Assembly: GCA_016235555.1 (NCBI GenBank)
Contig: JACRKC010000064.1
Coordinates: 1 to 48,413, forward strand
From: Verrucomicrobiota bacterium
GTDB taxonomy: Bacteria > Verrucomicrobiota > Verrucomicrobiia > Opitutales > Opitutaceae
Direction of reading: 5' to 3'
Length of the DNA stretch: 48,413 nucleotides
This document shows positions 1 to 27,428 of the stretch, one piece after another; the first letter of the stretch is position 1, and each line of letters begins with the position of its first letter. Under the pieces are notes generated by a model. The model saw only the letters and a program-made list of their open reading frames with translations. It did no database searches and had not been told where the DNA came from. Position numbers and translations under genes: made by a program.

Positions 1-357
1 CCGCGGGCCGTCCTCGGCGTCTCGCCGAGGATTTCGGAGGTGTCGGCGAGACGCCGGCACCAGCACCCGAGACGGGTGCGCTCCCCGAACCACCGAACTC
101 TTTGTCACCCTATTTCGCGAGGCTCAGTAATGGGTTACTTTCCCGGAACGGGTTTGCATCGTCGTTGCGCGGGTAGGTTGGGGTTTGGCCCCTCGAAATC
201 CACCGACGGCGGACAAGCGTCGGGCATAAAGGCCCGACCTACGCGTCACGGCGTGGCTGCCCTGGTGCCGGCTCCGCCGGATAGGTATGCTCCTCAAACC
301 ACTCGGGGGGGCTTGAGGCGGAGCCGGCGATTTCCGATTTTTCGCACTTCAAGACCC
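1..357. repeat. Non-coding 5' stretch with a truncated MITE-like repeat and a second palindromic repeat
   Basis: No gene is supported before the lyase start at 358. Positions 1-127 match most of the 44755-44933 element almost base for base, including the CTCGGCGTCTCGCCGAGG hairpin and the GCGAGGCTCAG end; the left end is cut by the window edge. Positions 173-242 (TAGGTTGGG to CCCGACCTA) form a palindromic repeat whose second copy is at 11647-11712. An open frame runs from 40 into the lyase, but its first 106 codons are this repeat DNA and are not credible protein. Confidence 0.75.
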
Positions 358-5539: not shown

Positions 5540-6643
5540 CTACTTCACACTGAAGCGGGCGAGGGTGATTTTCTCGTAGGGCTTTTTCTCGCCGCGCTCG
5601 TAGAGGCAGGCGGCTTCGGTCGCCGAGAGGGAGAGGAGGCACGAGTAGGCGGCGGGGCCGGCGTGGAGCGTCGTGAGCTCGCGCCAGGTCGCGGCCTCGT
5701 CGGTGCTGACGCGGACGAGGAGGTTGGTGCGGGTCTTGGCGGCGGGGTTCGAGAAGAGGAGTGCGCCGGACTCGTGGCGGCGGATGCTGGCCTGGCAGAT
5801 CGGCTCGATGAGTTCGACGGCGTGGCGCTGGTCCTCCCACGTCAGGCCGCCGTCGCGGCTGAACGCGTGCTGACGCGCCGGCTGCGTCTTGTCGTAATTG
5901 CGCATGTTGAGGAGCAGGCGGCCGTCGGTGAGTTCGACGACTTCGCACTCGTTGACCTGGTCGCGGGGCGAGGTGCCGCCGAGCTTCCAGGTGGCGCCGT
6001 GATCGTCGGAGTAGATCGCGTGCGAGTAGTAGCGCTTCGAAGGCGCCTCGATGTGGTCGCAGGGAATCACGAGGCGACCGCGAGCCGCGCCGCGCTCGAG
6101 CTGGATGCCGGCGCCGGGGCCGGTTGCATACCAGGTCCAGTCGGGCTGCTTGACCGTCGTGGTGATTTCGCGCGGTTTGGACCAGGTCTGGCCGTGATCG
6201 CTGGATTGGAGGACGAAGATGCGGCGGGTGTCGCGGCTGGTTTGCGCGATGATGTTTCGCTCCACGTCGTCGCCGCGATTCCATGTCGAGAGAAGGAAGA
6301 TCGTGCCGGTCGTGCGGTCGACGACGGGGCAGGGGTTGCCGCAGGTGTTGGTGTCGTCGTCCCACACGACTTGTTGTGCGCTCCAGGTGCGGCCGCCGTC
6401 GGTGGAGCGCTTGAGGAGGAGGTCGATGTTGCCGGCGTCGCCGCCGCCGGCTTTGCGGCCTTCGGCGAAGGCGAGGAGGACGCCGTTCTGCGCGCGGATC
6501 AGCGAGGGGATGCGGTAGGTGTGATAGCCGTCCTGCCCGGAGGTGAAGACGTCGATCTGCTCGGCGGGCGGGGGCGCGGCGCGAGCAGGAAGGGATGAGA
6601 CGAAGAGGGCGGAGAGGACGAAGGGGAGGTGGCGGAGGCGCAT
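5540..6643 (-). CDS. Exo-alpha-sialidase (GH33), canonical
   Basis: The protein has 367 residues; start ATG 6643 gives a signal peptide (MRLRHLPFVLSALFVSSLPARA). Farther-upstream starts would translate a repeat. All sialidase landmarks are present: YRIPSL with triad Arg44, EGR at 61-63, Asp boxes STDGGRTW, SSDHGQTW, SDDHGATW and SRDGGLTW, NECEVVEL near 231-238, Arg248 in NMRN, Arg311 in LLVRVSTD, the probable nucleophile Tyr in AYSCLL (about 333), and LYERGE. It should release terminal sialic acid from glycans outside the cytoplasm. It lies downstream of the TonB receptor on the same strand. A GAATCC-type inverted repeat sits 14 nt before the start codon. Confidence 0.88.
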   Translation of the reverse strand: MRLRHLPFVLSALFVSSLPARAAPPPAEQIDVFTSGQDGYHTYRIPSLIRAQNGVLLAFAEGRKAGGGDAGNIDLLLKRSTDGGRTWSAQQVVWDDDTNTCGNPCPVVDRTTGTIFLLSTWNRGDDVERNIIAQTSRDTRRIFVLQSSDHGQTWSKPREITTTVKQPDWTWYATGPGAGIQLERGAARGRLVIPCDHIEAPSKRYYSHAIYSDDHGATWKLGGTSPRDQVNECEVVELTDGRLLLNMRNYDKTQPARQHAFSRDGGLTWEDQRHAVELIEPICQASIRRHESGALLFSNPAAKTRTNLLVRVSTDEAATWRELTTLHAGPAAYSCLLSLSATEAACLYERGEKKPYEKITLARFSVK

Positions 6644-6657
6644 GGTGAAATCGGCGG

Positions 6658-6751
6658 TCATTCTGAAAGAAGCGAAGAATCCATCTTGATTTTGTGCGCG
6701 GGGGCGAGGAGCGAAGCTCCCACTGGATTCTTCGCTTCGCTCAGAATGACA
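6658..6751. repeat. GAATCC/GGATTC inverted repeat, copy 1
   Basis: The left arm begins GTCATTCTGAAAGAAGCG and the right arm ends GCTTCGCTCAGAATGAC, with a spacer of about 45 nt containing GGAGCGAAGCTCC. Copies 2 and 3 lie at 13901-13996 and 16140-16233. All three sit just upstream of the start codon of a minus-strand gene. Confidence 0.8.
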
Positions 6752-6879
6752 AATCAAGGTGCATGGTGCGCTATTTTTGGGCGAGAAGGGATGCGTGACA
6801 CGAACGAGCCTCGGGGGCGTGGCGGCATGGACACGAGGTGAGCAGGCCGTGGCGAGGCGAGTGAAGGTGGAGGGTTTCT

Positions 6880-6906
6880 CCACTGAGGCGGGACGCCTCA
6901 GCCACG
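6880..6906. repeat. GAGGCGGGACGCCTC short palindrome
   Basis: The sequence CTGAGGCGGGACGCCTCAG lies just before the stop codon side of the TonB receptor. Related copies are at 18817-18882 (two in a row) and 41231-41278 (two in a row). It may act as a small hairpin at the gene end; the role is unknown. Confidence 0.7.
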
Positions 6907-6914: not shown

Positions 6915-9900
6915 TCAGAAGCTGCCGCGGATGCCGACGTTGGTGTAGTAGCCGAGTTCCTGCCAGCGGGTGGGCTTGGCGTAGTCGGGTGTGGTGGGCG
7001 AGTAGCGCTGGAGGTTTTGCACGAACCCGCCCCAGTCGACGAGCGAGGCGTAGAGCGAGTAGCGTTTGGTGAGACTGTAGTTCACGTTGACGCCGATGCG
7101 CGTGCGTTTCGCCTGATAGTTGAAGGTGTTGGGGGCGACGGTGGCGCTGGCGGCGACGGTGCCGGTCTTGACGTCGCCGGTGTAGCTGATCGTCCACTTG
7201 AGGGCGAGGCGGCCGCGGATGAAGTTCACGCCGCCGGAGAGCGACTTCGGGTTGTAGCCGGAGAAGTCGTTGGTGCGCGAGCCGCTGAGGTTGAGCTTGG
7301 TCGCGTTGGCGAACACCTGGAGGCCGCGCGCCCAGTGCGGGAGGAACGTGAGGGACTGGCGGTAGGTGAACTCGATGCCCTGGATCTTGGCATCGCCGCC
7401 GTTGGAGAGCGTGGTGAAATTGTAGCTGAGCAGCGACTGGTCGCTCTCGAGGCCGTAGAGTTCAAGCAGTTCGGGCGTGGCGGCGGTGGTGACGGAGGTG
7501 AAGAAGTCCTTGATCTCCTTTTGGAACACGCCGACGGAGCCGAAGCCGTCCTTGATCTGGTAGCTTTCGAGCGAGAGGTCGTAGCTCTTGGCGCTCCACG
7601 GCTTCAGGCCGGAGTTGTTGACGGTGATCGTGGGGTTGACGGCGTTGGCGTCGGAGATCGAGGTGCTCGGGATGATGTTGTTGATGTTGGGGCGGCCGAG
7701 CGTCTGGGCGTAGGCGGCGCGGAGGATGAGGTTCTCGGTGATCGTGTAGCTCGCGTTGAGGCTCGGGTAGTAGCCGCTGTAGTGCTGGTCGGACGTGGCG
7801 CCGCGCTCGACGTAGCGGAGTTTGCGGAGGGTCAGGGCGTCGGCGGATTTGTTCACGGGCTGGATGCCGGCCTGGTTGGGGTTGCCGTCGATCAAGCGGC
7901 CGCTGGCGTCGCGCTGGTATTGGGCGTTGATGTCGTTGAGCGGGCCGCTGCCTTTGTCGTGGGTGCGCTCGAAACGGACGCCGGTGACGAGCCAGAGCTT
8001 GTTGTTGAGCAGGCGCACATCGGCGCGGAGGTAGGCGGCGGCGACCTGCTCGGAGAGCTGGCGGGAGTTGTTGACGCGATCCTGCCAGATCTGCGCCTCG
8101 TCGGTGACGAACCACGCCGGGTTCTTCTGGTAGAGCTCGTAGAGTTTCTTGCCGCTGATCCAGCGGACCTTCCGGCCGAAGAGGGTCGGGGCGTCGTCGT
8201 TGTAGGCGGTGTCGAAGACATCGAAGTTTTTCGCCTGGCGGGAGACGGCGTCGGCGGCGCCGTTGGGGCGGAAGGTCCACGTCCTCGGGTAGCGGCGCTG
8301 GTCGTTTTGCATGGTGTCGATCAGGCCGCCGACCTTGAGCGTGAACGGAATGCGGCCGCGGAACTCGCGCGCGAGGTCGAGTTTGAAGTTGTAGCGCTGG
8401 GTGTTCCAGTCGGGCTGGTTGCTGTTGCCGCTGGTGATGGAGTAGTTGCCGCCGTCGTAGACGTCGACCGCCTGGCCCGCGGCGTTGGTGGCGGAGTAGC
8501 TCGTGGGGATCGTGCCGCCGGAGCTGGGGATGCCGTCGCCGCGGAGGATGACGTTGGAGATGGTGGCGGGGGTGGTGTTGAAGAAGCCGGCGTCGACGTC
8601 CCAGCGGTCGCTGCCGGAGGTGGAGTAGTAGCTGCCGAAGTCGATGCGCCAGGTCGCGCCGCGGTGGCGGTATTTGAAATTGTAGAGCTTGGTCTGGGTG
8701 AGGATGTCGACGTTCTCGCCGCTGCCGTTCATGGTGATGGTGCCGGCGGGGAGGGCGGTGCCGGTGGGAATCGCGCTCTGCGAAAACGTCGCGCCGCCGG
8801 TGGCGCCGGCGCCGTAAGCGAAGGCGAGCACGCTGCGCGTGATCGGGAGGGCGTAGCTGCGATACTGGCCGCTGAGGGAGAGGAAGTCGGTCGAGTTGAG
8901 GCGGTAGTCGATGCCGATCTGGCCCTGGAGCGTGCGGAATTGCTGCGCGAGGCTGTTCCACTGGCTCGTGGTCTGGACGTTGCGGACCTGATCCCAAGCG
9001 GGGCTCTCATCGGTGTCCTTGGTGCCGGTTTCCATCGGCTTGGCGCGCCAGGTGCGCGAGCCGCCGATGGTGATGGCGAGGTCGCGATTGATGGGACGGA
9101 GGTAGCTGAAATCGAAGGACGGCAGGATGTATTTCGAGGAGGTGACGCCGGAGGCGTTGCGCGGGCCGCCGTCGAAGGTGAGGCCGTTGCGGTTGTGAAA
9201 CATCGTGTAGACGTTGTAGGTGAAGCGCGGGGCCTTCGTCTCAAAGCCGTTGCGCGTGATCAGATTGATCGAGCCGCCGAGGCCGCTCGCGGGCATGTCG
9301 GGCGTCGGCACCTTGGTGATCTCGACGCGCGACACGTTGTTCATCGGCACCTCGCGCAGATCGAGCGAGCGGCTGTTGCCGTTGAAGGTCCCGGTGGTCT
9401 CGGCGCCGTCGATCGTAAGGCCGGTGTTGTTGCCGGGGAAGCCGCGCATGGCGACGGTGGTCGGCTCGGAGCCGGAGGTGGTGACGGACACGCCGGGCAG
9501 GAAGAGGAGAAACTCGCCGATGTTTTCCGCGCCGCGATCGCCGAACTCATCCATGGCGACGACGTTCTTGATGTTGGGGGCGGTGCGCTGCTCGTTCATC
9601 GAGATCGCCTGGGCGCTCATCTCGCGATCGGCGACGACGGTGAAGGCGTCGAGCTTGACGGCGTCGCCCGAGCCGGCGCGGCCCGCGCGATCGAGCACGA
9701 GTTCGAACTCGCGGCGCACGGCGCCGGTCGCGGTCACGTTGACGGAGGCTTTTTGCGACGCCATGCCGAGGTAGCTGACGTTGATCAGCGCCGGGCCGAC
9801 GGGCACTCCGGTGAGGCGGTATTCGCCGGCGGAGTCGGTGACGACCTCGCGCTCGGAGCCGTCGAGCGAGACGCGGGCGTTGGCGAGGGCGTTGCCGGTG

Positions 9901-10046
9901 GCGGCGTTGAACACGCGGCCTTCGATGATGCCGGAGGCCCGTTCGACAGGCTCAGGGCGGGCCGACTGGGCGCGAGCGGCGGGCAGGAGCAGGGCGGCCG
10001 CGAAAACGAGCGAGGCGAGGACGCGGGAAACAAGCGAGGTTTGCAT
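6915..10046 (-). CDS. TonB-dependent outer-membrane receptor with N-terminal carboxypeptidase-regulatory-like domain
   Basis: The protein has 1043 residues. A signal peptide (1-26, ending PAARA) is followed by a CarboxypepD_reg-like Ig domain (about 38-115, IIEGRVFNAATGNALANARV). A TonB-box-like DAVKLDAFTVV follows (about 128-138), then a plug domain (about 160-275, with GEFLLFLPGVSV, MRGFPGNNTGLTIDG and GGSINLITRNG) and a beta-barrel ending in Phe (VGIRGSF). It should import a glycan or sugar ligand across the outer membrane with TonB/ExbBD energy. It is flanked by sialidases on the same strand, so a sialylated oligosaccharide or sialic acid is the likely cargo (inferred). No SusD-like gene is adjacent. 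Residues 30-37 (RPEPVERA) are encoded by a dispersed repeat inserted just after the signal peptide. Confidence 0.88.
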   Translation of the reverse strand: MQTSLVSRVLASLVFAAALLLPAARAQSARPEPVERASGIIEGRVFNAATGNALANARVSLDGSEREVVTDSAGEYRLTGVPVGPALINVSYLGMASQKASVNVTATGAVRREFELVLDRAGRAGSGDAVKLDAFTVVADREMSAQAISMNEQRTAPNIKNVVAMDEFGDRGAENIGEFLLFLPGVSVTTSGSEPTTVAMRGFPGNNTGLTIDGAETTGTFNGNSRSLDLREVPMNNVSRVEITKVPTPDMPASGLGGSINLITRNGFETKAPRFTYNVYTMFHNRNGLTFDGGPRNASGVTSSKYILPSFDFSYLRPINRDLAITIGGSRTWRAKPMETGTKDTDESPAWDQVRNVQTTSQWNSLAQQFRTLQGQIGIDYRLNSTDFLSLSGQYRSYALPITRSVLAFAYGAGATGGATFSQSAIPTGTALPAGTITMNGSGENVDILTQTKLYNFKYRHRGATWRIDFGSYYSTSGSDRWDVDAGFFNTTPATISNVILRGDGIPSSGGTIPTSYSATNAAGQAVDVYDGGNYSITSGNSNQPDWNTQRYNFKLDLAREFRGRIPFTLKVGGLIDTMQNDQRRYPRTWTFRPNGAADAVSRQAKNFDVFDTAYNDDAPTLFGRKVRWISGKKLYELYQKNPAWFVTDEAQIWQDRVNNSRQLSEQVAAAYLRADVRLLNNKLWLVTGVRFERTHDKGSGPLNDINAQYQRDASGRLIDGNPNQAGIQPVNKSADALTLRKLRYVERGATSDQHYSGYYPSLNASYTITENLILRAAYAQTLGRPNINNIIPSTSISDANAVNPTITVNNSGLKPWSAKSYDLSLESYQIKDGFGSVGVFQKEIKDFFTSVTTAATPELLELYGLESDQSLLSYNFTTLSNGGDAKIQGIEFTYRQSLTFLPHWARGLQVFANATKLNLSGSRTNDFSGYNPKSLSGGVNFIRGRLALKWTISYTGDVKTGTVAASATVAPNTFNYQAKRTRIGVNVNYSLTKRYSLYASLVDWGGFVQNLQRYSPTTPDYAKPTRWQELGYYTNVGIRGSF
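9938..9962. repeat. TTCGACAGGCTCAGGGC repeat inside the TonB receptor gene
   Basis: CCCGTTCGACAGGCTCAGGG matches a dispersed element also seen at 1628-1652, 22527-22550 and 33363-33393. Read on the gene strand it encodes ARPEPVERA at the start of the mature protein. It keeps the frame. Confidence 0.7.
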
Positions 10047-10133
10047 GGCGAACAGGGTTGGGAGGGCGGGGAACTGCCGGTAACTGGTCCGAGGAGGATT
10101 GCGGGCGGCCGGCCGCGGGCGAACAACCGGAAA

Positions 10134-10143
10134 CCAGTGGTAT
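10134..10143 (-). promoter_or_regulatory. Candidate operator ATACCACTGG upstream of the TonB receptor
   Basis: On the gene strand the sequence reads GATACCACTGGTTTC, a near-perfect palindrome around ACCA-C-TGGT, about 87 nt before the receptor start. The same 10-mer in the same orientation lies before the aldolase (11748) and the Asp-box gene (17509). A GntR/LacI-like regulator is in the cluster, so an operator is plausible but unproven. Confidence 0.45.
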
Positions 10144-10221
10144 CATGTTGGCACCAACCGCCGGTGCGATCCGGACAGGGGCGCAGCGTGAGGTCCCGGC
10201 GCTCCGGGACGAAATTCGCGG

Positions 10222-11373
10222 TCAGGGGACCGCGACAAGCCACGCGAGATTGAAGCGGGCCACGCGGATGTCGCTGCGCGCCTCGTAGAGACAGAGCACG
10301 GTGCCGTCGGCGAGCACGGCGAGATCGGAGTAAGCGGAGGGCGCGGTGTCGAGGGTCCGGTTGACGGGCCAGGTCTTGCCGTCGTCGCGGCTGAGTTTGA
10401 TCGAGAGGTTTTCGCGAGCGCTCTTGCCGCCGGGCTCGGCGGGCTGCGTGTGGGGATTGGAGAAGAGGAGCGTGCCGGGCTGGGCCGGATACGCGACGAT
10501 GCTCGCCATGCAGCGCGGTTCCCAGAGCTGGTCGTGGAAGGTGGGTTTCTCCCAGCGTGTGGCACCATCAGGACCGACGGTGACGATCTTGCGGTTCGCC
10601 TTCGAGGTGCTGCGAGAGATCAGCATGACGCGGCCATCGGAGAGCTCGGTGAGCATCGTCTCGTTGGGGCTGCTGAAGTCGCCGGCGTTGGGCACCGCGA
10701 CGTCGCCCGCGCGCCAGGTCTTACCGTGGTCGTCGCTGTAGATCGTGCCGGCGGCGGCGGGGCCGTGATCGCCGATGCCGCCATAGGCGAGCCAGATGGG
10801 CACGACGAGGCGGCCGGTTTTCAGCTGGAGGCCGTGGCCCGGGCCAGTGGCGATGACCTTCCAATCATAGTGGCGGCGGAACGGCTCGAAGATCGTGGTG
10901 ATCTCGATGGGAGCGCTCCACGTGACGCCATCGTCGGTGCTGCGCATGGCGAAGCAGCGCGCGTAGTTCACGCAGTAGAGAAACTCGATCGCGCCGGTCG
11001 TGCGGTCGACGATGGCGACGGGGTTGTTGACGGTCTGCTCGTGCTCGCCGCCCTGCTTTTTGCGCGGGTTGCCCTCGATGCGCGCGGCGCGGTGGGCGAT
11101 CTGGCGGGGCGCGTCCCATGTGCGGCCGCCGTCGGTGGAGCGGCGCAGGTGGATCTCGATCTCGCCCCAGTCGGAGGCGTTGTTCTTCCGCGCTTCGCAA
11201 TACGCGAGCACGGTGCCCTTCGGTGTGATGACGATGCCCGGGATGCGATGACGGGCGATGCCGTTGGATTTGGCGGGGAACACGTCGTTGAACTCGAGGA
11301 GCGGCGCGGCGCGCAGGGCGCAGACGAGGCCGGCGAGGAGGAACGAAAAGCAGGCGAGACGGCGGAGGTTCAT
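10222..11373 (-). CDS. Exo-alpha-sialidase (GH33), second canonical copy
   Basis: The protein has 383 residues with a signal peptide (MNLRRLACFSFLLAGLVCALRAAP). Sialidase features: HRIPG with the first triad Arg, CEARKN, Asp boxes STDGGRTW, STDDGVTW, SDDHGKTW and SRDDGKTW, SSPNETMLTELSDGR, the third-Arg region LISRS, the nucleophile Tyr in APSAYSDL, and LCLYEAR. It is probably an active periplasmic or secreted sialidase. It is clearly distinct from the one at 5540, perhaps with different linkage preference (inference). It lies just upstream of the TonB receptor (175-nt gap) and is divergent from the HpaI-type aldolase across a repeat-rich gap of 428 nt. Confidence 0.86.
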   Translation of the reverse strand: MNLRRLACFSFLLAGLVCALRAAPLLEFNDVFPAKSNGIARHRIPGIVITPKGTVLAYCEARKNNASDWGEIEIHLRRSTDGGRTWDAPRQIAHRAARIEGNPRKKQGGEHEQTVNNPVAIVDRTTGAIEFLYCVNYARCFAMRSTDDGVTWSAPIEITTIFEPFRRHYDWKVIATGPGHGLQLKTGRLVVPIWLAYGGIGDHGPAAAGTIYSDDHGKTWRAGDVAVPNAGDFSSPNETMLTELSDGRVMLISRSTSKANRKIVTVGPDGATRWEKPTFHDQLWEPRCMASIVAYPAQPGTLLFSNPHTQPAEPGGKSARENLSIKLSRDDGKTWPVNRTLDTAPSAYSDLAVLADGTVLCLYEARSDIRVARFNLAWLVAVP

Positions 11374-11801
11374 CGGAGCGAAAACGGTTGGGTGAAAGAA
11401 AGCGGCTGAGGCGCAGCCATGCAGTCGAATTCCACGAAGCGAGGTAGCAGCCGAGGTAACGAGGCCGTGGTGCGACGATCAACTGAGCCCAGCCTCCTCA
11501 CGTCGGCTGCTACGGCCGACTGCATGGCTACGTGTTGAGGCGCATTAGGCGTGCGCCGGCCGGCCCGGCTCAACCCCGAACACGTGGTGTCTCCGTCGCA
11601 CCTCCGGCGAAGGTGGTTTGAGTCAAAGAGTAGCCGCGGCTGGCAGGTAGGTCGGGGTTTATCCCCGACATCCACCGCAGGCGGACAAGTGTCGGGCGTA
11701 AAGCCCGACCTACGCAAACCGCTGTAGGCCGACGAGGAATCATCGGGATACCACTGGCCGGGGATTGCGCGGCAGGGCGTGGGCCGCACGATGCGCGGGC
11801 A
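11374..11801. repeat. 428-nt divergent gap with two palindromic repeats
   Basis: No gene is seen. An inverted repeat spans 11413-11533; its outer arms are GCAGCCATGCAGTCG and CGACTGCATGGCTACG, and its inner arms GTAGCAGCCGAGG and CACGTCGGCTGCTAC. A second palindromic repeat at 11647-11712 (GTAGGTCGGGGTT to AAGCCCGACCTAC) is a copy of 173-242. The candidate operator ATACCACTGG follows at 11748. Promoters for both divergent genes must lie here, but no convincing -35/-10 pair was seen. Confidence 0.75.
11748..11757 (+). promoter_or_regulatory. Candidate operator ATACCACTGG upstream of the HpaI-type aldolase
   Basis: GGGATACCACTGGCC lies 44 nt before the aldolase start, in the same gene-relative orientation as the sites at 10134-10143 and 17500-17509. 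Confidence 0.45.
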
Positions 11802-12617
11802 ATGACCCCGCAAACGCTTCGCGCCGCACTCCGTGCCGGACGCCCCGTCGTCGGCACCTTGATCGTCGCGGATTCGCCGCGGTGGCCGGCGTCGGTTGCG
11901 CAGATCGGGCTCGATTTCGTGTTCATCGACACGGAGCACATCGCAATCGACCGAGCGTCGTTGTCGTGGATGTGCCAGACGTATGCCGCGCTCGGACTGC
12001 CGCCCATTGTGCGCATCCCCTCGCCCGACCCCTATGCCGCGACGATGGCGCTCGATGCCGGCGCGGCGGGCGTGGTGGCGCCGTATGTCGAGACGGTGGA
12101 GCAGGTGCAGGCGCTGCGCGGGGCGGTGAAACTGCGCCCCATCAAGGGCGCGAAGCTGCAGGCCGCGCTCGAAGGCACGACACCGCTCGAACCGACGCTG
12201 GTCGACTACCAGCGGACACGCGCGGCGGAGAATGTTTTGATCATCAACATCGAGAGCCGGCCGGCGCTGGAAAACCTCGACGCGCTCCTCGCGGTGGAGG
12301 GGGTCGATGCCGCCTTGATCGGACCGCACGATCTCTCGTGCAGCCTGGGCGTGCCGGAGAACTACGATGCGCCGGAATTCGACGCCGCGGTGCGGGCGAT
12401 CGCGCGCGGGGCGCGGGCGCGCGGTGTCGGCGCCGGCATCCACTCGTGGATGGGCGTGGCGCGGGAAGCCTCGTGGGCGTGGGACGGGATGAATCTGTTC
12501 ATCCACAGCGCCGACATCATCGCGATGCGGCAGACGCTGGGCGTGGAAGTGCGCGAATTGCGCGCGGCGCTCGGTGGCGCGGCGAAAGCCGACGCGGCAG
12601 GCGCGGAGAATATCTGA
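11802..12617 (+). CDS. HpcH/HpaI-family class II aldolase
   Basis: The 271-residue cytoplasmic protein is full length for the family of metal-dependent pyruvate aldolases acting on 2-keto-3-deoxy acids. Start ATG 11802 gives MTPQTLRAALRAGRPVVGTL. Visible motifs: FVFIDTEH (about 39-46, matching the IDxEH block), VRIPSPDP (70-77, conserved Arg), IINIESRPALENLD (metal Glu) and IGPHDLSCSLG (metal Asp). It should cleave a 2-keto-3-deoxy sugar acid into pyruvate and an aldehyde. With two DHDPS-type lyases nearby, the cluster has three aldolases of pyruvate-releasing families, hinting at more than one acid sugar. It converges on the oxidoreductase at 12801. Confidence 0.85.
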   Translation: MTPQTLRAALRAGRPVVGTLIVADSPRWPASVAQIGLDFVFIDTEHIAIDRASLSWMCQTYAALGLPPIVRIPSPDPYAATMALDAGAAGVVAPYVETVEQVQALRGAVKLRPIKGAKLQAALEGTTPLEPTLVDYQRTRAAENVLIINIESRPALENLDALLAVEGVDAALIGPHDLSCSLGVPENYDAPEFDAAVRAIARGARARGVGAGIHSWMGVAREASWAWDGMNLFIHSADIIAMRQTLGVEVRELRAALGGAAKADAAGAENI

Positions 12618-12701
12618 GAGCGTGTCGAAAAAGTCCCGCGAGCGCGCCGTCTCGTAGCGGAACGCGTGAGCGTTTCGCTCGAAACAACAGGATTGGTTCG
12701 G

Positions 12702-12783
12702 GGTGGAGCGCGTTGCCCTCAACGCGCTTCGGGAGATTTGAAGACGTCCCAGACCAGCGCGGTGGGGGGCAACGCGCTCCACC
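12702..12783. repeat. GGAGCGCGTTGCCC inverted repeat
   Basis: Perfect 17-bp arms GGTGGAGCGCGTTGCCC (12702-12718) and GGGCAACGCGCTCCACC (12767-12783) lie between two converging genes. The hairpin could stop transcription from both sides, but it lacks T-runs. Confidence 0.75.
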
Positions 12784-12800
12784 TCGATGGCAGAGCCGGC

Positions 12801-13871
12801 TCAGGCTGGCAGGCCGCTGGCGCGCAGGACGGTTTCCTGCACGGCGAGATCGTGGGCGGGGGTCCACGCCAAGGCCTTCTCACCGCGGATGACCTTCGCG
12901 AGGTCCTCGAAGTCGGCTTCGTAGCGCGGACGGTTTTTCACGGGCACGGTCTGCGTGCCGCGCTTGAATTCGCCGCGTGGTGCGTTGAGTGCGAGGCGGA
13001 GGGCGGGCGGCTCCAGCGGACGAATCTCGGCGGTGCCGCCGTCGCCGCACACGACGAATTGCCGGCGGGCGCCGCCGTCGACCTCGACCAGCGAGCTGCG
13101 CACGGTCGCGATGACGCCGGGATATTCGAGCACGGCGAGTTGATTGTCCGGCAACTCATCCGCCTGCGCGCTGGAGTGACGGGCGGACGCGGTGACGCTG
13201 CGGGGTTTACCGATCAACGTGACCACGGCGTCGATCAGGTGGCAGCCGAGTTCGAACATCGCGCCGCCGCGGTAAGGCAGCAGCTTCTGGCGTTCGGCGG
13301 CGCTCACGACTTTGCCGATCACCGCCTCGATGGAGAAGAGCCGGCCGAGCCACTGCTCGCGTGCAGCGCGGAAGGTGAGTTCGAAGGCCGGATTGTAGCG
13401 GAACATGTAGCCCAGCTGCACCGTGCGCTGTTTCGCGGTCGCCGTGTCGAGCAGGTGGCGGAATTCCGGCAGCGATTCGCCGGCGGGCTTGTCGAGGTGC
13501 ACGTGCAAGCCGCGGGCGACGCAACGCGCCGCCGTGGGCACGAGGTCCTTCACCGCGGTCTCGACGGCGACGGCGCGCAGATCCGCGGTGTTGAACAACT
13601 GCTCCTCCGTCAGCCAGCGCACATCCTGATAGTCTTTTCGCGACGAGGCGGCGCGACGGAGCTGCTCGTCGGGCTCGCAGACGCCGACGAGTTCGAAGTC
13701 CGCGGATCGCCGGAGCACGGCAATTTTGCCGTCGGCGTGCGCGTGCCCGGTGCCGATCTGGGCGATGCGCAGGCGCGGAGCGCCGGCCGCGGCCGAGCGG
13801 ACGACGCGGGGTGCGACTACGACCGCGAGGGCGGCGCGGCTGGCGTGAGAGATAAACTTACGGCGCTGCAT
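12801..13871 (-). CDS. Gfo/Idh/MocA-family oxidoreductase, Tat-type leader
   Basis: The protein has 356 residues. The leader MQRRKFISHASRAALAVVVA has a twin Arg and a hydrophobic stretch, so Tat export is likely. The Rossmann start LRIAQIGTGHAHADGKIAVL binds NAD(P), and HLDKPAGES is the family EKP-type motif with its catalytic-site Lys. The C-terminal alpha/beta domain includes GCHLIDAVVTLIGKPRSV. It probably oxidises or rearranges a sugar or its derivative in the periplasm; the substrate is unknown. It is the last gene of the minus-strand run regulator, two Asp-box proteins, RraA-like, oxidoreductase. A GAATCC-type inverted repeat lies 29 nt before the start. Confidence 0.82.
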   Translation of the reverse strand: MQRRKFISHASRAALAVVVAPRVVRSAAAGAPRLRIAQIGTGHAHADGKIAVLRRSADFELVGVCEPDEQLRRAASSRKDYQDVRWLTEEQLFNTADLRAVAVETAVKDLVPTAARCVARGLHVHLDKPAGESLPEFRHLLDTATAKQRTVQLGYMFRYNPAFELTFRAAREQWLGRLFSIEAVIGKVVSAAERQKLLPYRGGAMFELGCHLIDAVVTLIGKPRSVTASARHSSAQADELPDNQLAVLEYPGVIATVRSSLVEVDGGARRQFVVCGDGGTAEIRPLEPPALRLALNAPRGEFKRGTQTVPVKNRPRYEADFEDLAKVIRGEKALAWTPAHDLAVQETVLRASGLPA

Positions 13872-13900
13872 TACGAGGCACGCACGAGCGTGAGGCGGTT

Positions 13901-13996
13901 GTCATTCTGAGCGAAGCGAAGAATGCAGGGAGATGCGTGCTGTGACCAGATGGTTCGAAAGCTCGATCGGATTCTTCGCTGCGCTCGTAATAACAA
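13901..13996. repeat. GAATCC/GGATTC inverted repeat, copy 2
   Basis: The left arm is GTCATTCTGAGCGAAGCGAA and the right arm CGGATTCTTCGCTGCGCTCG, the right end being slightly eroded (GTAATAAC). It sits 29 nt before the oxidoreductase start. Confidence 0.75.
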
Positions 13997-14029
13997 CCAG
14001 GAGGGAGTCCATCGTCGCCCACTGAGCGG

Positions 14030-14077
14030 GTAGCAGCCGACGTGAGGAGGCCGGCCTCGTCACCTCGGCCGCTACGA
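14030..14077. repeat. GTAGCAGCCGACGTGAGGAGG palindromic repeat
   Basis: GTAGCAGCCGACGTGAGGAGG pairs with CCTCGTCACCTCGGCCGCTAC. A close copy at 39212-39257 overlaps the stop codon of the heparinase-like gene. Related half-copies lie at 11446-11512, 18990-19016 and near 22090-22200. Confidence 0.7.
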
Positions 14078-14078
14078 G

Positions 14079-14849
14079 TCACCACTCGCCGCGGCGGGCG
14101 AATTTTTTCTTCACGTCTTTCCGGAATTGCGCGGCCGCGGCGTCGAACTCCGCGCGAATGGTGGAGAGCGATTTACCGGCACCGCCACGGGCGGCGGGGA
14201 TCAGCGTCTGGCATTCGTTGCTGTCCATGAAGCGCGCCGCCTCGAGGAGGTGCTGTTCGTCGCCGAAGGGGACCGCGAGGAAGCCGTGCTTGTCGGCGTG
14301 GATGAGCTGGCCGGGCTGAATTTTCCGGCCGAACACCTCGACTTCACCGCCCCAGCGCACCGGGCACGAATGCGCGTGGCCCACGCACAGCCGGCGCGCG
14401 AGGGCCTTGAAACCGGCGTTGGTCATTTCGTCGACGTCGCGGATCGCGCCGTCGCAGATCGTGCCGACGCAGCCGAGGGCGCGGTGGATGTTGCTGTTCA
14501 CTTCGCCCCAGAACGCGCCGATCGCGCGCGGCTTGTCGAGGTCCTGCACGACGACAATTTTCGGACCGGGGAGCGACGCCACGTAGCGACGATAGTCGCT
14601 CCACGCGTGCGGGTTGACCTTCGGGTGCGCGCTGTTGCTCGGCTCGCAGACGACGGTGAGGGCGTAGCCGACCATCGGTCCCATCTGCGGCATGAAGTCG
14701 CGCGTCTCCTCGACATTGAACGCGTCCGTCGCGTGATCGTGGCGCGTGATCTGTTCCCAGCCGTTGTAGAGCGTGGGGGTGTTCCAGCGTTTGAGCTCGA
14801 GGAGGGTGCTGTGCGGAAGCGGGCGGGAAGGGCGTTTCATGGGTTTCAA
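14079..14849 (-). CDS. RraA-like family protein (putative class II aldolase/decarboxylase)
   Basis: The protein has 256 residues. The RraA/HMG-aldolase fold is shown by GAFWGEV (about 111-117) and GTICDGAIRDVDE (129-141); the Arg-Asp pair of DGAIRD normally positions substrate and Mg2+. Members cleave or decarboxylate 2-keto acids such as 4-hydroxy-4-methyl-2-oxoglutarate; others of this fold inhibit RNase E. In this catabolic run, a small-molecule role on a keto sugar acid is more likely than RNase control (inference). ATG 14849 gives MKPMKRPSRP; ATG 14840 (second Met) is possible. It lies 122 nt after the Asp-box gene at 14972, separated by a CGGAT-type inverted repeat. Confidence 0.8.
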   Translation of the reverse strand: MKPMKRPSRPLPHSTLLELKRWNTPTLYNGWEQITRHDHATDAFNVEETRDFMPQMGPMVGYALTVVCEPSNSAHPKVNPHAWSDYRRYVASLPGPKIVVVQDLDKPRAIGAFWGEVNSNIHRALGCVGTICDGAIRDVDEMTNAGFKALARRLCVGHAHSCPVRWGGEVEVFGRKIQPGQLIHADKHGFLAVPFGDEQHLLEAARFMDSNECQTLIPAARGGAGKSLSTIRAEFDAAAAQFRKDVKKKFARRGEW

Positions 14850-14850
14850 T

Positions 14851-14932
14851 CCAACCGCGGATTACGCGGATAAACACGGATTTTGATCTCGTGGCGTGGC
14901 TTTATCCGCGTCCATCCGTGTAATCCGCGGGC
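14851..14932. repeat. CGGATTACGCGGAT inverted repeat
   Basis: CCGCGGATTACGCGGATAAA pairs with TTATCCGCGTCCATCCGTGT followed by AATCCGCGG. It is a relative of the element at 1312-1410. It lies between two genes of the same strand, so it would form a hairpin in the intercistronic mRNA. Confidence 0.75.
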
Positions 14933-14971
14933 AAAGTCTATTGGAATTCGAGGGCAGATCGGAGATCTGCC

Positions 14972-16129
14972 CTACTTCACGAGCTTGAATTTCCCGAAGT
15001 GAATGTGCGTGCGTGTGCGGTCCTTGGTGCCGCTGTCCCACACGGCGCGGAAATCGCCGGGCGCGACTTCGATCAGCGTCGGGTAGGAGTTGTGAATGCC
15101 GGCATTGTAAAAAGTTTTCTCCTCGCCCCACGGGCCGCCCGCGGTGGGTTGGAGTTTGTAGCGCAGCGCCATGCGGCCGTTGGGCGCGGGCGAGGCGGGG
15201 CCGTCGTTGTAGACGTAGAGGTGCGTGCCGGTGGCGGCGCGGCCGTAGAAGGCTTTCGATTTCGCGTTCCAGAGCTCGGGCTCCTGTTTCGCGGGGCTCC
15301 ACGTGCGGCCGCCGTCCTTGCTCACGGTGGAGAAGGCGCGCGGCGGATCGGTCATCTTGCGCTCGTCCTCGTAGTCGGCGGTGCGCATGACCATCTTCAG
15401 TTCGCCGGGCGCGTCGCCCTCGGCAATGTTGCCCTCGTGCAGGAAGACCTTCGGTCCGGTGGTGGGTTGCGGAATGAAGTTGGCGAGCGTCCACTCCATG
15501 AGCGTCGTGCTCGCGAGCACGAAGTGGTCGCGCGAGCCGAGCGGGTCGTTGCGGCGGGTGTTGCGGTGCATCGGGAACAGGTAGCGCGGCTTGCCCTTCT
15601 CCATCACGCGATACGGGCCGGCGACGCAGATGAGCGGGCCGGTGTAGCCCATCGACATCTCGATCGGGATCCACGAGCGGCCGCCGTCCGCGCTGTAGGC
15701 GCCGACGAGCTGCGAATCCTCGCTGTGGCGGTAGTTCATCGGGCAGCGCATCGCGAAGGCCCACATCACGTCCTGCTCGGGGGCTTTGTAGAGGATGGCG
15801 TTGGCGTAGGCGAACTGGATGGTGCCCTGGCGCTCGAGGTGGTTGAAGATGAAAACCGGATCGCTCCACGTGTCGCCGTCGTTGGTGGACACGCTCGCCA
15901 TGATGTCGCCCATGTCGGTCTTGCCGGGGATTTTCACGCCGAACGCGGCGACGAGTTGCTTGCCCTTCCAGTGGGCGAGGTAGGGCTCCCAGAGCTCGGA
16001 CGAACCCGGATGCTGATCCATGTGGCGGATCACGCGCACGTCGGTGACATCGCCGGTGAAGGGCAGATCGGCGGCGGAAAGCGTGAGCGCGAGGCCGAGC
16101 AAGAGGGGGAAGGAGAGGCGGGGTTTCAT
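14972..16129 (-). CDS. Secreted Asp-box (BNR) beta-propeller protein, divergent sialidase-superfamily
   Basis: The protein has 385 residues; ATG 16129 gives a signal peptide (MKPRLSFPLLLGLALTLSAADLP). Asp boxes STNDGDTW, SADGGRSW and SKDGGRTW show a six-bladed sialidase-type propeller. The canonical sialidase marks xRIP, AYS and LYE are not visible, so sialidase activity is doubtful. It may be a glycosidase of other specificity or a lectin-like protein. It follows the other divergent Asp-box gene by 131 nt on the same strand. A GAATCC-type inverted repeat is only 10 nt before the start codon. Confidence 0.75.
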   Translation of the reverse strand: MKPRLSFPLLLGLALTLSAADLPFTGDVTDVRVIRHMDQHPGSSELWEPYLAHWKGKQLVAAFGVKIPGKTDMGDIMASVSTNDGDTWSDPVFIFNHLERQGTIQFAYANAILYKAPEQDVMWAFAMRCPMNYRHSEDSQLVGAYSADGGRSWIPIEMSMGYTGPLICVAGPYRVMEKGKPRYLFPMHRNTRRNDPLGSRDHFVLASTTLMEWTLANFIPQPTTGPKVFLHEGNIAEGDAPGELKMVMRTADYEDERKMTDPPRAFSTVSKDGGRTWSPAKQEPELWNAKSKAFYGRAATGTHLYVYNDGPASPAPNGRMALRYKLQPTAGGPWGEEKTFYNAGIHNSYPTLIEVAPGDFRAVWDSGTKDRTRTHIHFGKFKLVK

Positions 16130-16139
16130 AAAACGGTTT

Positions 16140-16233
16140 GTCATTCTGAGCGGAGCGAAGAATCCAGCAGGAGTGAAGACGCGTGGGGGAGGAGCGGACA
16201 TCCGATTGGATTCTTCGCTGCGCTCAGAATGAC
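16140..16233. repeat. GAATCC/GGATTC inverted repeat, copy 3
   Basis: GTCATTCTGAGCGGAGCGAA pairs with TTCGCTGCGCTCAGAATGAC. It sits 10 nt before the start of the gene at 14972-16129, where a hairpin would crowd the ribosome-binding region. Confidence 0.8.
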
Positions 16234-16260
16234 ACGGGGTGGAGGCGGTGAAGACACACT

Positions 16261-17445
16261 TTATTGTTTGCCCGCCTCGCCCCAGGTCAGCCGCGCCAGC
16301 ATCACGCGGCCGTAGTCGCGGCTGCCCTTGGTGGGGATCTCGGAGGTGACGACCCACCGCTCGTGCGGACTCACCTCGAGCACGCCGAAGCCGGCGCCGA
16401 GGTCGGCGTTTTCCTCGGGGAACACGATGCGCTCCGTCGCGCGGCGCACGACGAGTCTTTCCGGGTCGACCTCGGCGATGAAGAGCGGGGCGCGATGGCG
16501 CATCACGTGGTCGTTGTTGGCGCCGCGGCGCGTGTAGAGCAGGTAGAGCGTGTCGCCGTGCACGAGCCAGTGCTGCTGGGTGTTGTAGCTGCCGAGCACG
16601 GCACCGTCGTCCCGTTTCCATTCGATGAACGGTTCGTAGCGAAGGCCATCGCGGCTGCGGGCGACAAACGCCGAGTGGTCGGCGCGCATGGTGAGGAAGA
16701 ATTTCCCGCCGAACGCGGCGACCGACGGCTCGTAGAGTCCGCGTTCGCGCGGGATCATGAACTCGGAGCCGTGTTCGAGGTAAGTGAGTTTCTCGCCGTC
16801 GAAGCGGCAACGCGCGACGATCGTCGTGTAATAGCGCACGGCGGGATCTTTGCGGTAACGGATGGGCAGGAGGATTTCGCCGTTGGGCAGGTCGACCCGC
16901 TGGTGGCAGCCGGAGTTGGGCTCGAGAAACGGGCGGCCCTCGTGGTCCTGCGCGGGGAGGTCGACGAGGCGGAGTTCGCTCCAGCGGTTGGTCTGCGGGT
17001 GGAAAACCGCATACGAGACGCGTTCGAGGCCGCGGTCCTCCTTGGTGCCGCCGAGGAACCCGAAGGTCTTGCCGGTGGCGAGCACGCGCTGCGTGGCGGC
17101 GTGCCACTGCGGGCACACGTCGCCGATCACGAAGTCGTGGCCCTCGGGCCGGCGCGTGCGGCGGAGCGAATCGATGCGCTGGAGCGGCGACCACGTGCGC
17201 CCGAGGTCGGCGGTCTCAAGGTAGAACATGTCCTTGTAACCGTGCGCGCCGGTCGGGTCGGTCTCCTGCGTCGTGACGATGACGCGCGGCGTGGCGCCCG
17301 GGATCAGGGCGGCGCGCGACTGCGTGTAGAGCTGCGTGCCGCGGCCGGTGACGAGCGTGCTGACCTCAATGCGATACGGCGCGGGGGCCGCGAGCGCGAC
17401 CGACGCAAGCGACAGGGCGGGTAGCAAAGCACACGGCAGGGACAT
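16261..17445 (-). CDS. Secreted sialidase-superfamily propeller protein, divergent
   Basis: The protein has 394 residues; ATG 17445 gives a signal peptide (MSLPCALLPALSLASVALAAPAP). Codons upstream in the same open frame are antisense to the regulator and are not credible. One clear Asp-box-like motif is visible (ETADLGRTWSP), plus SRDGLRYEP. Conserved-looking blocks are QSRAALIPG, GLYEPSVAAFGGKFFLTMRAD and GSYNTQQHW. It resembles exo-alpha-sialidase-like beta-propellers but lacks the xRIP and LYE marks. Substrate unknown. It is the first gene after the regulator, 197 nt away, with two candidate operators in between. Confidence 0.72.
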   Translation of the reverse strand: MSLPCALLPALSLASVALAAPAPYRIEVSTLVTGRGTQLYTQSRAALIPGATPRVIVTTQETDPTGAHGYKDMFYLETADLGRTWSPLQRIDSLRRTRRPEGHDFVIGDVCPQWHAATQRVLATGKTFGFLGGTKEDRGLERVSYAVFHPQTNRWSELRLVDLPAQDHEGRPFLEPNSGCHQRVDLPNGEILLPIRYRKDPAVRYYTTIVARCRFDGEKLTYLEHGSEFMIPRERGLYEPSVAAFGGKFFLTMRADHSAFVARSRDGLRYEPFIEWKRDDGAVLGSYNTQQHWLVHGDTLYLLYTRRGANNDHVMRHRAPLFIAEVDPERLVVRRATERIVFPEENADLGAGFGVLEVSPHERWVVTSEIPTKGSRDYGRVMLARLTWGEAGKQ

Positions 17446-17499
17446 GGGGTGACGAGGTGACGGACTCCAGCGCCGGGGCCCATCCTCGGCAACGTCGGG

Positions 17500-17509
17500 C
17501 CAGTGGTAT
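17500..17509 (-). promoter_or_regulatory. Candidate operator ATACCACTGG upstream of the Asp-box gene
   Basis: On the gene strand the sequence reads ACATACCACTGGCCC, 54 nt before the start at 17445. It is the third copy of the 10-mer in gene-relative orientation. Confidence 0.45.
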
Positions 17510-17550
17510 GTTGTTGCGACCTCCGCCGCTGCGTCGAACCGGCGTGGTCG

Positions 17551-17575
17551 GAGTGTAACCCAATAGGTTACACTC
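17551..17575. promoter_or_regulatory. Perfect 25-bp palindrome GAGTGTAACC-N5-GGTTACACTC
   Basis: Ten-base arms are perfectly complementary around a 5-nt centre (CAATA). It lies between the end of the regulator gene and the Asp-box gene it probably controls. Its size and symmetry suit a GntR- or LacI-type dimer operator. It could instead be a weak terminator hairpin for the regulator gene, but no T-run follows. No second copy was seen in the window. Confidence 0.45.
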
Positions 17576-17642
17576 GTTGGAGCGCAGGCCGGTCCGGGAC
17601 CGGGTCGCCGCGGGGTCGCGCTGGGGTCGCGCCGGGACCGAA

Positions 17643-18770
17643 TCAAGGAGCCGGCGCGGCACCGACGCTCGCGCCGCGGACGAATTGCGGCATGAGGCGC
17701 CACGAACGCTGGGTGACGGCGCCGCCTTCCAGCAATTCGAGCACGGGCTGGAGCAGGCTGCGGGCGTAGGCCCGCGGACTCGCCACGTAGCGCGCAGGCG
17801 TCGGCACGAGGAAAGTCAGGAACGGATCCTCGTCGCGGGAGATGATCGAGACCTGGTCGGGCACGCGCCAGCCGAGGGCGGCCAGGCCGCTCGCGACGGC
17901 GAGGCAATGGTAGGCGTGGACGACGAGCAGCGCGGTGGGCGGAGGTTTTTGCGCCATGAGGCGTTTGAGTGCGGGCACGATGCCCGCGGCGCCGGCGTCG
18001 AGGCGGCAGACGATGGCGGAGGCGTCGGCATGGCCGGACGTGCGCACGCCTTCGAGAAAACCGGCTTCGCTCGCGAGGTCGCCGGCGAGCGGGACTTCCG
18101 GCGCAACGAGCGCGAGTCGCCGGTGGCCGAGGCCGAGCAGCACGCCGGCCGCGTGCCGGCACATCGCGCGGTGGTCGAGGTCGCGGAACGGCAGATCGAT
18201 ACCGTCGCTGCACGAACCGGCGACGAGACACGGGACGCCGCGCCGGGCGAACCACTCCTGGCAGGCGGGCGTCGCGAGCAGGAGGAGCCAGCACGCATGC
18301 GGGTGCTGGCGCACGAGTTTCTCGAGGGCGGCGGCGGGGTTGGTGCGGAAATATTGCCGACCGTGGATCACGTGCAGCCGGCAGCCGCGTTCGCTGAGCA
18401 TGGCGCGCAGGTCGTCGATCCAGAGGGTCTGCGTGGGGCGCAGACGCTCGAGCGGCTCGGGGGTGAGCAACGCGACCTCGGTCGAACGCAACCGGCCACG
18501 GGTCCGCGGGGTGGGCGCGAGGATGCGGTTGCCCGCGCCGTGTTCGGCGCGGATCGCGCCGTCGCGCTGGAGTTGGGCGAGCGCGCGACGCAGGGTGCTG
18601 CGGCTGATCTGGAGCAGTTCGCACAGCGTGCGCTCGGCCGGGAGCCACTCGCGCCACTGGCCCGCGGCGATCGCGTCGTGCAGGCACGCGACCGTCTGGC
18701 CGACGAGGGAGTGGCGTTGAGGGATGGCTCGCACGCGCGTGATCGCAGCGCAAGGGGCGCGGGCCGGCAA
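17643..18770 (-). CDS. GntR-type winged-helix regulator with LacI-like sensor domain
   Basis: The protein has 375 residues from TTG 18770; GTG 18734 is an equally possible start. The N-terminal winged helix (about 20-85) includes LPAERTLCELLQISRSTLRR and ends DGAIRAEHGAGNRI, as in GntR proteins. Residues about 95-360 resemble a periplasmic-binding/LacI effector domain (LLGLGHRRLALVAP, VSIISRDEDPFLTF). This AraR-like arrangement is used by sugar-responsive repressors. Heading a minus-strand run of catabolic genes, it probably senses a sugar acid and represses the cluster (inference). Candidate operators lie at 17551-17575 and at the three ATACCACTGG sites. Confidence 0.82.
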   Translation of the reverse strand: MPARAPCAAITRVRAIPQRHSLVGQTVACLHDAIAAGQWREWLPAERTLCELLQISRSTLRRALAQLQRDGAIRAEHGAGNRILAPTPRTRGRLRSTEVALLTPEPLERLRPTQTLWIDDLRAMLSERGCRLHVIHGRQYFRTNPAAALEKLVRQHPHACWLLLLATPACQEWFARRGVPCLVAGSCSDGIDLPFRDLDHRAMCRHAAGVLLGLGHRRLALVAPEVPLAGDLASEAGFLEGVRTSGHADASAIVCRLDAGAAGIVPALKRLMAQKPPPTALLVVHAYHCLAVASGLAALGWRVPDQVSIISRDEDPFLTFLVPTPARYVASPRAYARSLLQPVLELLEGGAVTQRSWRLMPQFVRGASVGAAPAP

Positions 18771-19079
18771 TATCTATGCGGGCTCGCCGGGCCATCGGGC
18801 GTATCTCGGCCTTCTGACTGAGGCGAGACGCCTCAGCCACGCCTGCTCGCCTCCGGCGAGTGGACGAGGCGTCCCGCCTCGTAGAACGCAGAAGAGCGGG
18901 AGGGCGTCGAAATGGGCACCTGGCGCGAAAGGTAGCCGACGGCTGACGGGAGATGGCGTAGCGGCGGGCCAGCGCTTTGGCATGGATCGTCCGGCCTCCT
19001 GACGTCGGCCGCTACCGCGGGCGGCTTCGTGAAATTTCCGGGTTTGCGCGGACGGGGTTTTGCGGAATGGTCGGCCGCC
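18771..19079. repeat. 309-nt divergent gap with GAGGCG palindromes
   Basis: No gene is seen. Two GAGGCG-type palindromes, ACTGAGGCGAGACGCCTCAG (18817-18836) and GTGGACGAGGCGTCCCGCCT (from 18860), lie side by side. A half-copy of the CTGACGTCGGCCGCTAC repeat is near 19000-19016. Promoters of the regulator and the fusion-protein gene must be here, but none is clear. Confidence 0.65.
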
Positions 19080-25560: not shown

Positions 25561-25988
25561 GTGGGAGGCTGGAAGAGCGATCGTCGCGCCAGGATTGGCG
25601 CGGTTGGGTGTCGCCGACTAAGAACAGCTCACCCCGCCAAGACAAGCAGGGAGACGGCGTTTCGTCGTCGTCGCGTCTCAGTTTCTTGCCGACCGTGAGC
25701 GCGACGGAACGGCGGTTTTCAACCGCCGGGCTTGGGCGCTTGAAACGCGCCCTTTCGTCGGGGGCGTGGCTCAAACTGAGGTCAGCGATTTGTAGCGGCG
25801 GTCTATGACCGCCGAACGAATACCCTTGGCGCCACGCCGGCGGTCATAGACCGCCGCGACAGCCGAGGCGTGCGGAAACTGACTTCAGATTGAGTTGCGC
25901 CCCTTTTTGTCGGTCCCGGCCAAGTTCAGCGTTGTGTCTTCGCTCTCGTGCGGCGAAGGTTGCTCACCCCCATCTGGCTCCAGTCCTG
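25561..25988. repeat. 428-nt gap upstream of the SIR2-TIR module with a composite repeat
   Basis: No gene is seen. Positions 25680-25753 hold a GGCGGTTTTCAACCGCC repeat. Positions 25764-25902 hold a second element with terminal arms GGCTCAAACTGAGGTCA and TGACTTCAGATTGAGTTGC and a perfect inner 20-bp hairpin (25795-25814 with 25838-25857). The same two elements recur at 48167-48413. The last 85 nt before the SIR2-TIR start carry AGCGTTGT at 25928-25935, also present before copy B. Confidence 0.75.
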
Positions 25989-27398: not shown

Positions 27399-27428
27399 GC
27401 GCCGCAATGGACTAACCCCGGTCCCCGC

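Follow-up and report, generated by a model that had tools for sequence, protein, structure and literature searches.

A predicted GGT-N11-ACC operator for an AraR-like regulator beside a putative sialic-acid gene cluster in an Opitutaceae genome

Introduction

A contig of an Opitutaceae genome (Verrucomicrobiota bacterium, GenBank assembly GCA_016235555.1, contig JACRKC010000064.1, positions 1 to 48,413; the whole 48,413-nucleotide stretch is called the window hereafter) carries the ten-letter sequence ATACCACTGG before three genes of a putative sialic-acid cluster, raising the question of whether these copies mark a regulatory site and, if so, which protein would recognize it. Comparison with related genomes makes it very likely, in our assessment, that the sites are operators of the cluster's own AraR-like regulator (17643-18770), built on a GGT-N11-ACC core and predicted to control the sialic-acid-type cluster.

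A repeated ten-letter sequence before three genes

The exact sequence ATACCACTGG occurs at 10134-10143 (minus strand), 11748-11757 (plus strand) and 17500-17509 (minus strand), just where a sequence-only reading of this DNA had placed it, and no additional copy appears in the window at one mismatch. All three copies are oriented as the downstream gene, at 87 nt from the ATG of a TonB-dependent receptor gene (ATG 10046), 44 nt from that of an HpcH/HpaI aldolase gene (ATG 11802) and 54 nt from that of gene 16261-17445 (ATG 17445), so that the orientation and the 44-87 nt range of the same reading hold at every copy; the start of gene 16261-17445 is a judged one, its frame staying open further upstream through the third site. 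Dinucleotide shuffles of the window gave at least three exact copies in 0 of 100 cases, and three copies with one mismatch tolerated in 2 of 100. When the 24 upstream regions were shuffled, some 10-mer was common to at least three of them in 54 of 2000 trials, and three other 10-mers, all from dispersed repeats, are also common to three of the real regions. Taken from the window alone and post hoc, the three-copy finding is therefore only moderately significant, suggestive but not overwhelming.

The host genome (8.03 Mb in 140 contigs, G000 in our set) contains 15 copies in total, against none in the backward control. Many genomic copies unrelated to gene starts had been named beforehand as evidence that would count against the motif, and 12 further copies do exist; however, all 12 lie in open frames (not verified genes) that read CAG TGG TAT, or Gln-Trp-Tyr, on the other strand, and the copies were therefore rejected as a refutation of the finding. 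Several of these frames show a Y/F-QWY context that we take to be that of Ig-like domains. The copy before the aldolase gene likewise reads QWY, in a frame antisense to that gene, and this is taken as chance because the antisense frame opposes a gene with a Pfam match. The three cluster copies were thus judged the only noncoding ones in the genome.

Aligned with sites from relatives, ATACCACTGG appears to be part of a longer element of about 34 nt, approximately GGTnGCAAnnnnATACCACTGGnnTnCGnTTGtt, for which we read the consensus GGTcGCAAnnnnATACCACtGGnnTncGnTTGtt. Scores below were given by R1, a sequence model made from eight seed sites (three from the window, five from relatives) and run on 150 genomes with stricter filters.

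10122-10155, minus strand: site 1, before the TonB-dependent receptor gene; GGT-N11-ACC dyad at 10139-10155; R1 26.9 bits
11736-11769, plus strand: site 2, before the HpcH/HpaI-type aldolase gene; left arm degenerate, GGA (dyad variant 11736-11752); R1 22.2 bits
17488-17521, minus strand: site 3, before gene 16261-17445; dyad at 17505-17521; R1 23.4 bits

Column information reached 0.97 and 0.76 bits inside the site versus 0.23 and 0.27 in the flanks, counted over nine sites, all of which except that of G173 had been chosen by the 10-mer.

The regulator and its clade

17643-18770, minus strand: regulator with a GntR winged helix and a LacI-type ligand domain (AraR-like), the proposed binder; start codon uncertain (TTG)

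The hybrid GntR/LacI-type identity that the sequence-only reading gave this protein was borne out at both ends. The N-terminal GntR winged helix matched PF00392 (E 3.1e-10, residues 27-82) and, in a PDB search, DNA-binding parts of FadR, while the C-terminal LacI/GalR-type ligand domain matched PF13377 (Peripla_BP_3; E 1.3e-16, residues 211-369) and LacI-family chains in the PDB.

Across 252 genomes of the family, seven regulators with at least 67% identity were recovered, the window's included, and in all seven cases a version of the site lies in the interval from the regulator to the following co-directional gene. G053 has two sites, before a homolog of gene 16261-17445 and before a TonB receptor; G171 has one before a TonB receptor and, by eye only, a degenerate copy before its homolog of gene 16261-17445; in G006 and G173 the site precedes a TonB receptor that shares 60% and 86% identity, respectively, with that of the window. 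In G025 it precedes a TonB-plug gene of another kind, with no alignment to the window's receptor beyond chance, and in G031 a partial gene at a contig end that resembles G025's by eye. The genes downstream of the sites are therefore unlike one another, comprising two kinds of TonB receptor, the aldolase gene and gene 16261-17445.

In a tree of 44 regulators, the seven site-bearing ones form one clade with 100/100 support, and site presence requires a single change, while none of 500 label shuffles gave so low a number. The 104 aligned regulators include seven that combine Ser58 with Arg62 in the recognition helix, and they are precisely the site-bearing ones. By our own alignment to FadR, position 58 corresponds to helix-turn-helix (HTH) position 39, that is FadR Thr46 and AraR His64, both listed as base-contacting in Table 1 of PMC4494728, where position 62 is not among the base contacts.

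Two further loci also deserve mention. In L088 (G139:C93), a regulator (9949-11058) 55% identical to the window's is directly followed by an aldolase gene (11189-12004; 71% identical). GGT-N11-ACCAC lies in the interval, and a diverged operator perhaps controls the same target here. In L077 of G025, a weak reversed site copy (15468-15497; R1 11.3 bits, E 0.14) lies before a NanA-like gene.

Distribution of the element among genomes

The R1 seeds scored 18.2-26.9 bits over the 150 genomes, and among the matches listed, all those of at least 18.2 bits are the eight seeds; the best listed non-seed matches reached 17.6 bits, in G002 and G050, both in called frames. In the window genome the three sites scored 22.2-26.9 bits and the next match among those listed 14.6. 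No match was found at any of 19 loci with regulators outside the clade. Both held-out clade sites were found at the expected place, in G173 with 17.4 bits and in G171 with 24.5 bits, the latter being a near-copy of a G053 site. Lower matches included one of 16.5 bits in G125 and a noncoding pair of 15.0 and 14.0 bits in G032.

A 17-base pattern, all of whose bases are invariant in the three window sites (one invariant base was omitted) and were picked after the relatives' sites had already been seen, gave 11 matches at up to one mismatch in the 252 genomes, against one for the backward control. Three are the window sites, five lie beside clade regulators (G025, G171, G031 and twice in G053) and three fall elsewhere. 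Matches lying inside called frames were set aside, namely those of R1 in G002, G050 and G096 (16.4-17.6 bits) and that of the pattern in G019.

The GGT-N11-ACC palindrome

Two dyads fit the sites, one centered on the C of ACCA-C-TGG and the other, GGT-N11-ACC, centered 10 nt upstream. The sequence-only reading had chosen the first (ACCA-C-TGGY); this dyad does exist, as the second best, but GGT-N11-ACC has stronger comparative support, so the first is probably not the main one. A column-permutation test of the dyads was itself weak, the best value being reached in 1.65% of 2000 permutations.

The comparative support comes from the flanks of related regulators, in which GGT-N11-ACC recurs amid otherwise differing bases. 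A first set of 91 flanks, clade included, contained 30 occurrences versus a mean of 6.1 at other spacings. In a held-out set of 60 regulators (the next matches by E-value not yet included, with the exception of paralogs in the window genome, rows within stretches already included and the cut proteins G052:C23 and G145:C882), GGT-Nk-ACC with k from 0 to 21 occurred 29 times at k = 11 and elsewhere 6.7 times on average and 10 at most; 28 of these 29 sequences are distinct. The extended TGGT-N11-ACCA occurred 10 times in the held-out set versus a mean of 0.29. Among 1,408 combinations of 64 trinucleotides and 22 spacings, GGT/11 ranked first in both sets, with scores of 9.3 in the first and 8.3 in the held-out set, the runners-up scoring 5.7 and 4.4. 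Counted by regulator, 50 of 104 show GGT-N11-ACC at least once in the roughly 280 nt to each side, whereas every other spacing gives 6-17. At k = 11, three of four controls, reversed or shifted, were flat. The fourth, GCT-N11-AGC, was raised in the held-out set (17 versus 7.8) and falls outside the top 14 combinations in both sets; several of its copies lie in upstream flanks (e.g., L221, L228, L235 and L237), and the excess could be coding or reflect a variant arm.

Because this palindrome tops both the first and the held-out set, the window sites are best read as GGT-N11-ACC operators, ATACC probably being one arm of the main palindrome, with TGG-N7-TTG as a clade-specific extension. The element is, on this comparative evidence, probably a functional operator.

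Observations that weigh against the operator reading

Several observations weigh against assigning the sites to this regulator. Helix residues and site are correlated only once along the tree, so their association represents one evolutionary event (n = 1). An eighth regulator fragment with the same helix (L250, CAITWF010000086.1, 3001-5484) has no site because the stretch where a site would lie is missing from the contig. No strong site precedes the regulator's own gene, and autoregulation was rejected on that ground. Seed sites score high by construction, which leaves G171 and G173 as the only held-out sites. The 17-base pattern has no match in two of the six other clade genomes (G173 and G006) and has three away from clade regulators, in G181 (71 nt upstream of a TonB-plug gene), in G183 (83 nt upstream of a frame with no family assigned) and in G019 (within a called frame); the G181 match is noncoding and, at 19.2 bits with R1, scores above one of the seeds. 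A first, looser matrix scored 20.8 in G081 and 19.7 in G121, beside non-clade regulators (best backward score 14.3), so the border of the clade-specific site form is not sharp.

The palindrome has its own difficulties. The held-out regulators are phylogenetically non-independent, and no GGT-N11-ACC lies near 54 of the 104 regulators, roughly half. The left GGT is replaced by GGA in site 2 and by GGC in the G031 site. Within the whole window, GGT-N11-ACC shows no excess (14 copies versus 8-16 at spacings 8-10 and 12-14; noncoding copies, 7 versus 2-6), so the short motif alone cannot predict sites. In all strong clade sites the extension faces the gene, an arrangement that a symmetric operator would not call for; this constant orientation could reflect a third half-site for a second dimer, or the promoter's place. 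Finally, no promoter was recognized, a sigma-70-like search of 9900-19000 giving none.

Apart from these points, the L250 contig shows a peculiarity of its own, regulator residues 15-71 running into the middle of a TonB receptor, which represents a deletion or an assembly error.

Alternative explanations

A different transcription factor, either a global regulator or a GntR-LacI paralog, might bind the sites, which we consider unlikely. The window genome does encode three further family regulators at E <= 1e-30, and the G181 site stands in a genome whose 12 recovered regulators are at most 46% identical to the window's; but the gap in the window genome between its three sites and the next listed match, the blank at the 19 non-clade loci, and the fact that, G181 aside, matches of at least 18.2 bits among those listed adjoin this regulator clade all argue against it.

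A promoter or sigma-factor element is a still poorer fit, improbable in our judgment, even though the uniform orientation at 44-87 nt before genes would suit one and TGG-N7-TTG superficially resembles a -24/-12 promoter (TGGC...TTGC as a sigma-54 element). The sigma-54 consensus has its -24 and -12 elements at GG-N10-GC spacing, but the GG-to-GC spacing in the aligned sites is 9 by eye, on which ground this element was rejected, and TTGC is present in only three of the nine. The blank sigma-70-like search speaks against a promoter too, and GGT-N11-ACC beside many regulators suggests a dimeric DNA-binding protein instead.

An attenuator or riboswitch in the 5' untranslated region would likewise account for strong clade sites that all share one orientation upstream of start codons, yet we regard it as very improbable: no Rfam match at gathering level was found in the window (leaders were not folded), and reversed copies occur before the TonB-plug gene in G181 and, weakly, before the NanA-like gene in G025. 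Coincidence or a dispersed repeat can hardly be the explanation, despite the upstream-region shuffles and a window rich in dispersed repeats, as the flanks of the sites are not conserved, five of the eight matches outside the window in the 252 genomes adjoin one regulator clade, and the palindrome was confirmed in the held-out set.

Proposed mechanism

For the preferred reading, operators of the cluster's own regulator, the most likely scheme is that the protein, as one or more dimers, would occupy the operators, close to the promoters of three transcription units (receptor, aldolase and 16261-17445), and repress these units, and that sialic acid or a breakdown product would bind the LacI-type domain, upon which the regulator would leave the DNA. 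Repression rather than activation is reasonably likely by analogy with LacI and, as far as their accounts in PMC4218819 and PMC8012715 extend, with AraR and NanR; a sialic-acid-type ligand, drawn from the same analogies, is somewhat likely. The sequences themselves show the sites, their near-confinement to this cluster and to genomes with this regulator clade, the palindrome across the family and the corresponding helix residues; binding, sign of regulation and ligand are inferred.

Comparison with known systems

AraR of Bacillus subtilis, as presented in parts of PMC4494728 and PMC4218819, combines a GntR winged helix with a LacI/GalR-type ligand domain and governs a sugar regulon through several palindromic operators. 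The two-domain build of the AraR subfamily is the same as here, whereas the GGT and ACC arms are 11 bases apart here and AraR boxes are numbered 1-16 in those accounts, and the target is a sialic-acid-type cluster instead of arabinose genes. The 22 sequences that the regulator matched in the PDB do not include AraR.

Escherichia coli NanR regulates sialic-acid genes through TGGTATA-type half-sites, according to PMC8012715 and section 5 of PMC4494728. The first six bases of TGGTATA are the reverse complement of ATACCA, but NanR is described there as binding direct GGTATA repeats, in contrast to a single TGGTAT, on the reverse strand, paired with an inverted GGT arm here, and the scheme in PMC4494728 gives NanR, of the FadR subfamily, a FadR-type ligand domain in place of the LacI-type Peripla_BP_3 domain. 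The TGGTAT half-site is also recorded in PMC4494728 for NagQ besides NanR and, as ATACCA, for GabR.

The general GntR operator formula NyGTNxACNy (PMC4494728, section 5) formally accommodates the predicted operator GGT-N11-ACC if x is 11, a spacing well beyond that of the FadR and HutC forms given there. That section describes YtrA-type sites as the only type with GT and AC far from the palindrome center; the arms here are likewise far from the center, but the C-terminal domain is short in YtrA proteins and LacI-type here. In section 17 of the same review, some GntR sites are reported to possess an extra half-site 7-12 nt away from the center. TGG...TTG similarly lies outside the palindrome, with the difference that TGG, which begins 11 nt from the center, equals the arms in conservation, and that TTG lies 21 nt from the center.

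The gene cluster and other features of the window

The genes related to the sites, and two weak candidate sites, are as follows.

6915-10046, minus strand: TonB-dependent receptor (Pfam PF00593, PF07715), proposed target of site 1
5540-6883, minus strand: BNR_2 gene, co-directional, after the TonB receptor
3561-4994, minus strand: sulfatase gene, co-directional, after the TonB receptor
11802-12617, plus strand: HpcH/HpaI-type aldolase (Pfam PF03328; below NCBIfam cut-offs), proposed target of site 2
16261-17445, minus strand: gene without an assigned family, proposed as the target of site 3; in G053 (82% identical) and G171 (81%) a homolog comes after the regulator
14972-16129, 14079-14849 and 12801-13871, minus strand: co-directional genes after 16261-17445 in the window
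358-1278: DHDPS-family (NanA-like) protein
1368-2441: NANM-family epimerase
284-300, plus strand: weak candidate GGT-N11-ACC(AC), 57 nt before the NanA-like gene (ATG 358); score within chance
11571-11602, minus strand (GGT-N11-ACC at 11586-11602): weak candidate in the interval from BNR_2 gene 10222-11373 to the aldolase gene; score within chance (R1 5.8 bits, E 1.1)

The surroundings thus hold, together with the NanA-like and NANM genes and the regulator, a sulfatase, three BNR_2 proteins, a Gfo/Idh/MocA oxidoreductase and an RraA-like protein. Because such genes surround the sites, sialic-acid utilization is the likely function of the cluster, though the NCBIfam cut-offs were missed for both the N-acetylneuraminate lyase (140.7 of the 281 bits needed) and the epimerase (145.6 of 416). 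The label of a sialidase cluster, under which the sequence-only reading had placed the three genes, does not fit gene 16261-17445, which has no Pfam, NCBIfam or PDB match, and a sialidase identity for it was dropped. Dispersed TTGTCATTCTGAGCGAAGCGAAGAATCC-type repeats lie between cluster genes at 6655-6684, 13899-13928 and 16138-16167.

A perfect palindrome, GTGTAACC-CAATA-GGTTACAC (17553-17573), is located between the regulator gene and site 3. Genome-wide, GTGTAACC-N5-GGTTACAC has eight exact copies, two with one mismatch and four with two, against none for the control. Exact copies stand between convergent called frames (L171, L175), after a frame (L170), between divergent frames (L172) and, elsewhere, inside frames; one copy, on C129, is 34 nt upstream of the codon for residue 19, where the alignment of a paralogous regulator begins, and may overlap the start of that gene. 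At up to two mismatches, none was found in the 36 relatives' loci scanned. Given these mixed genomic positions and the blank in relatives, the palindrome was rejected as the regulator's operator; a terminator-like repeat or another protein's site are candidate readings.

Farther along, 25890-36552 holds a duplicated gene pair with repeat blocks 70-84% alike, a SIR2-TIR protein and a 1283-aa protein being followed by a second TIR protein and a 1240-aa protein. For the TIR parts the matches are to anti-phage defence models, the SIR2 part having been examined in the first copy only.

Implications for the Opitutaceae regulators

Opitutaceae genomes may possess many such hybrid regulators, with 11 matches in G045 and 12 in G181. 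No described operator for them was found in the open-access literature searched, and papers beyond it may exist. The operator layout could be new for a large regulator family; the GntR-LacI architecture and TGGTAT half-sites are already known. Going further, we would put it at only slightly better than even that GGT-N11-ACC is the common operator frame of the expanded Opitutaceae GntR-LacI family, to which each clade adds its own helix residues (positions 58 and 62) and inner or flanking bases. If this is true, a common frame together with a predicted specificity position would allow regulators to be assigned to polysaccharide and sialic-acid clusters, and the sugar-uptake regulons across these Verrucomicrobiota would become readable from sequence.

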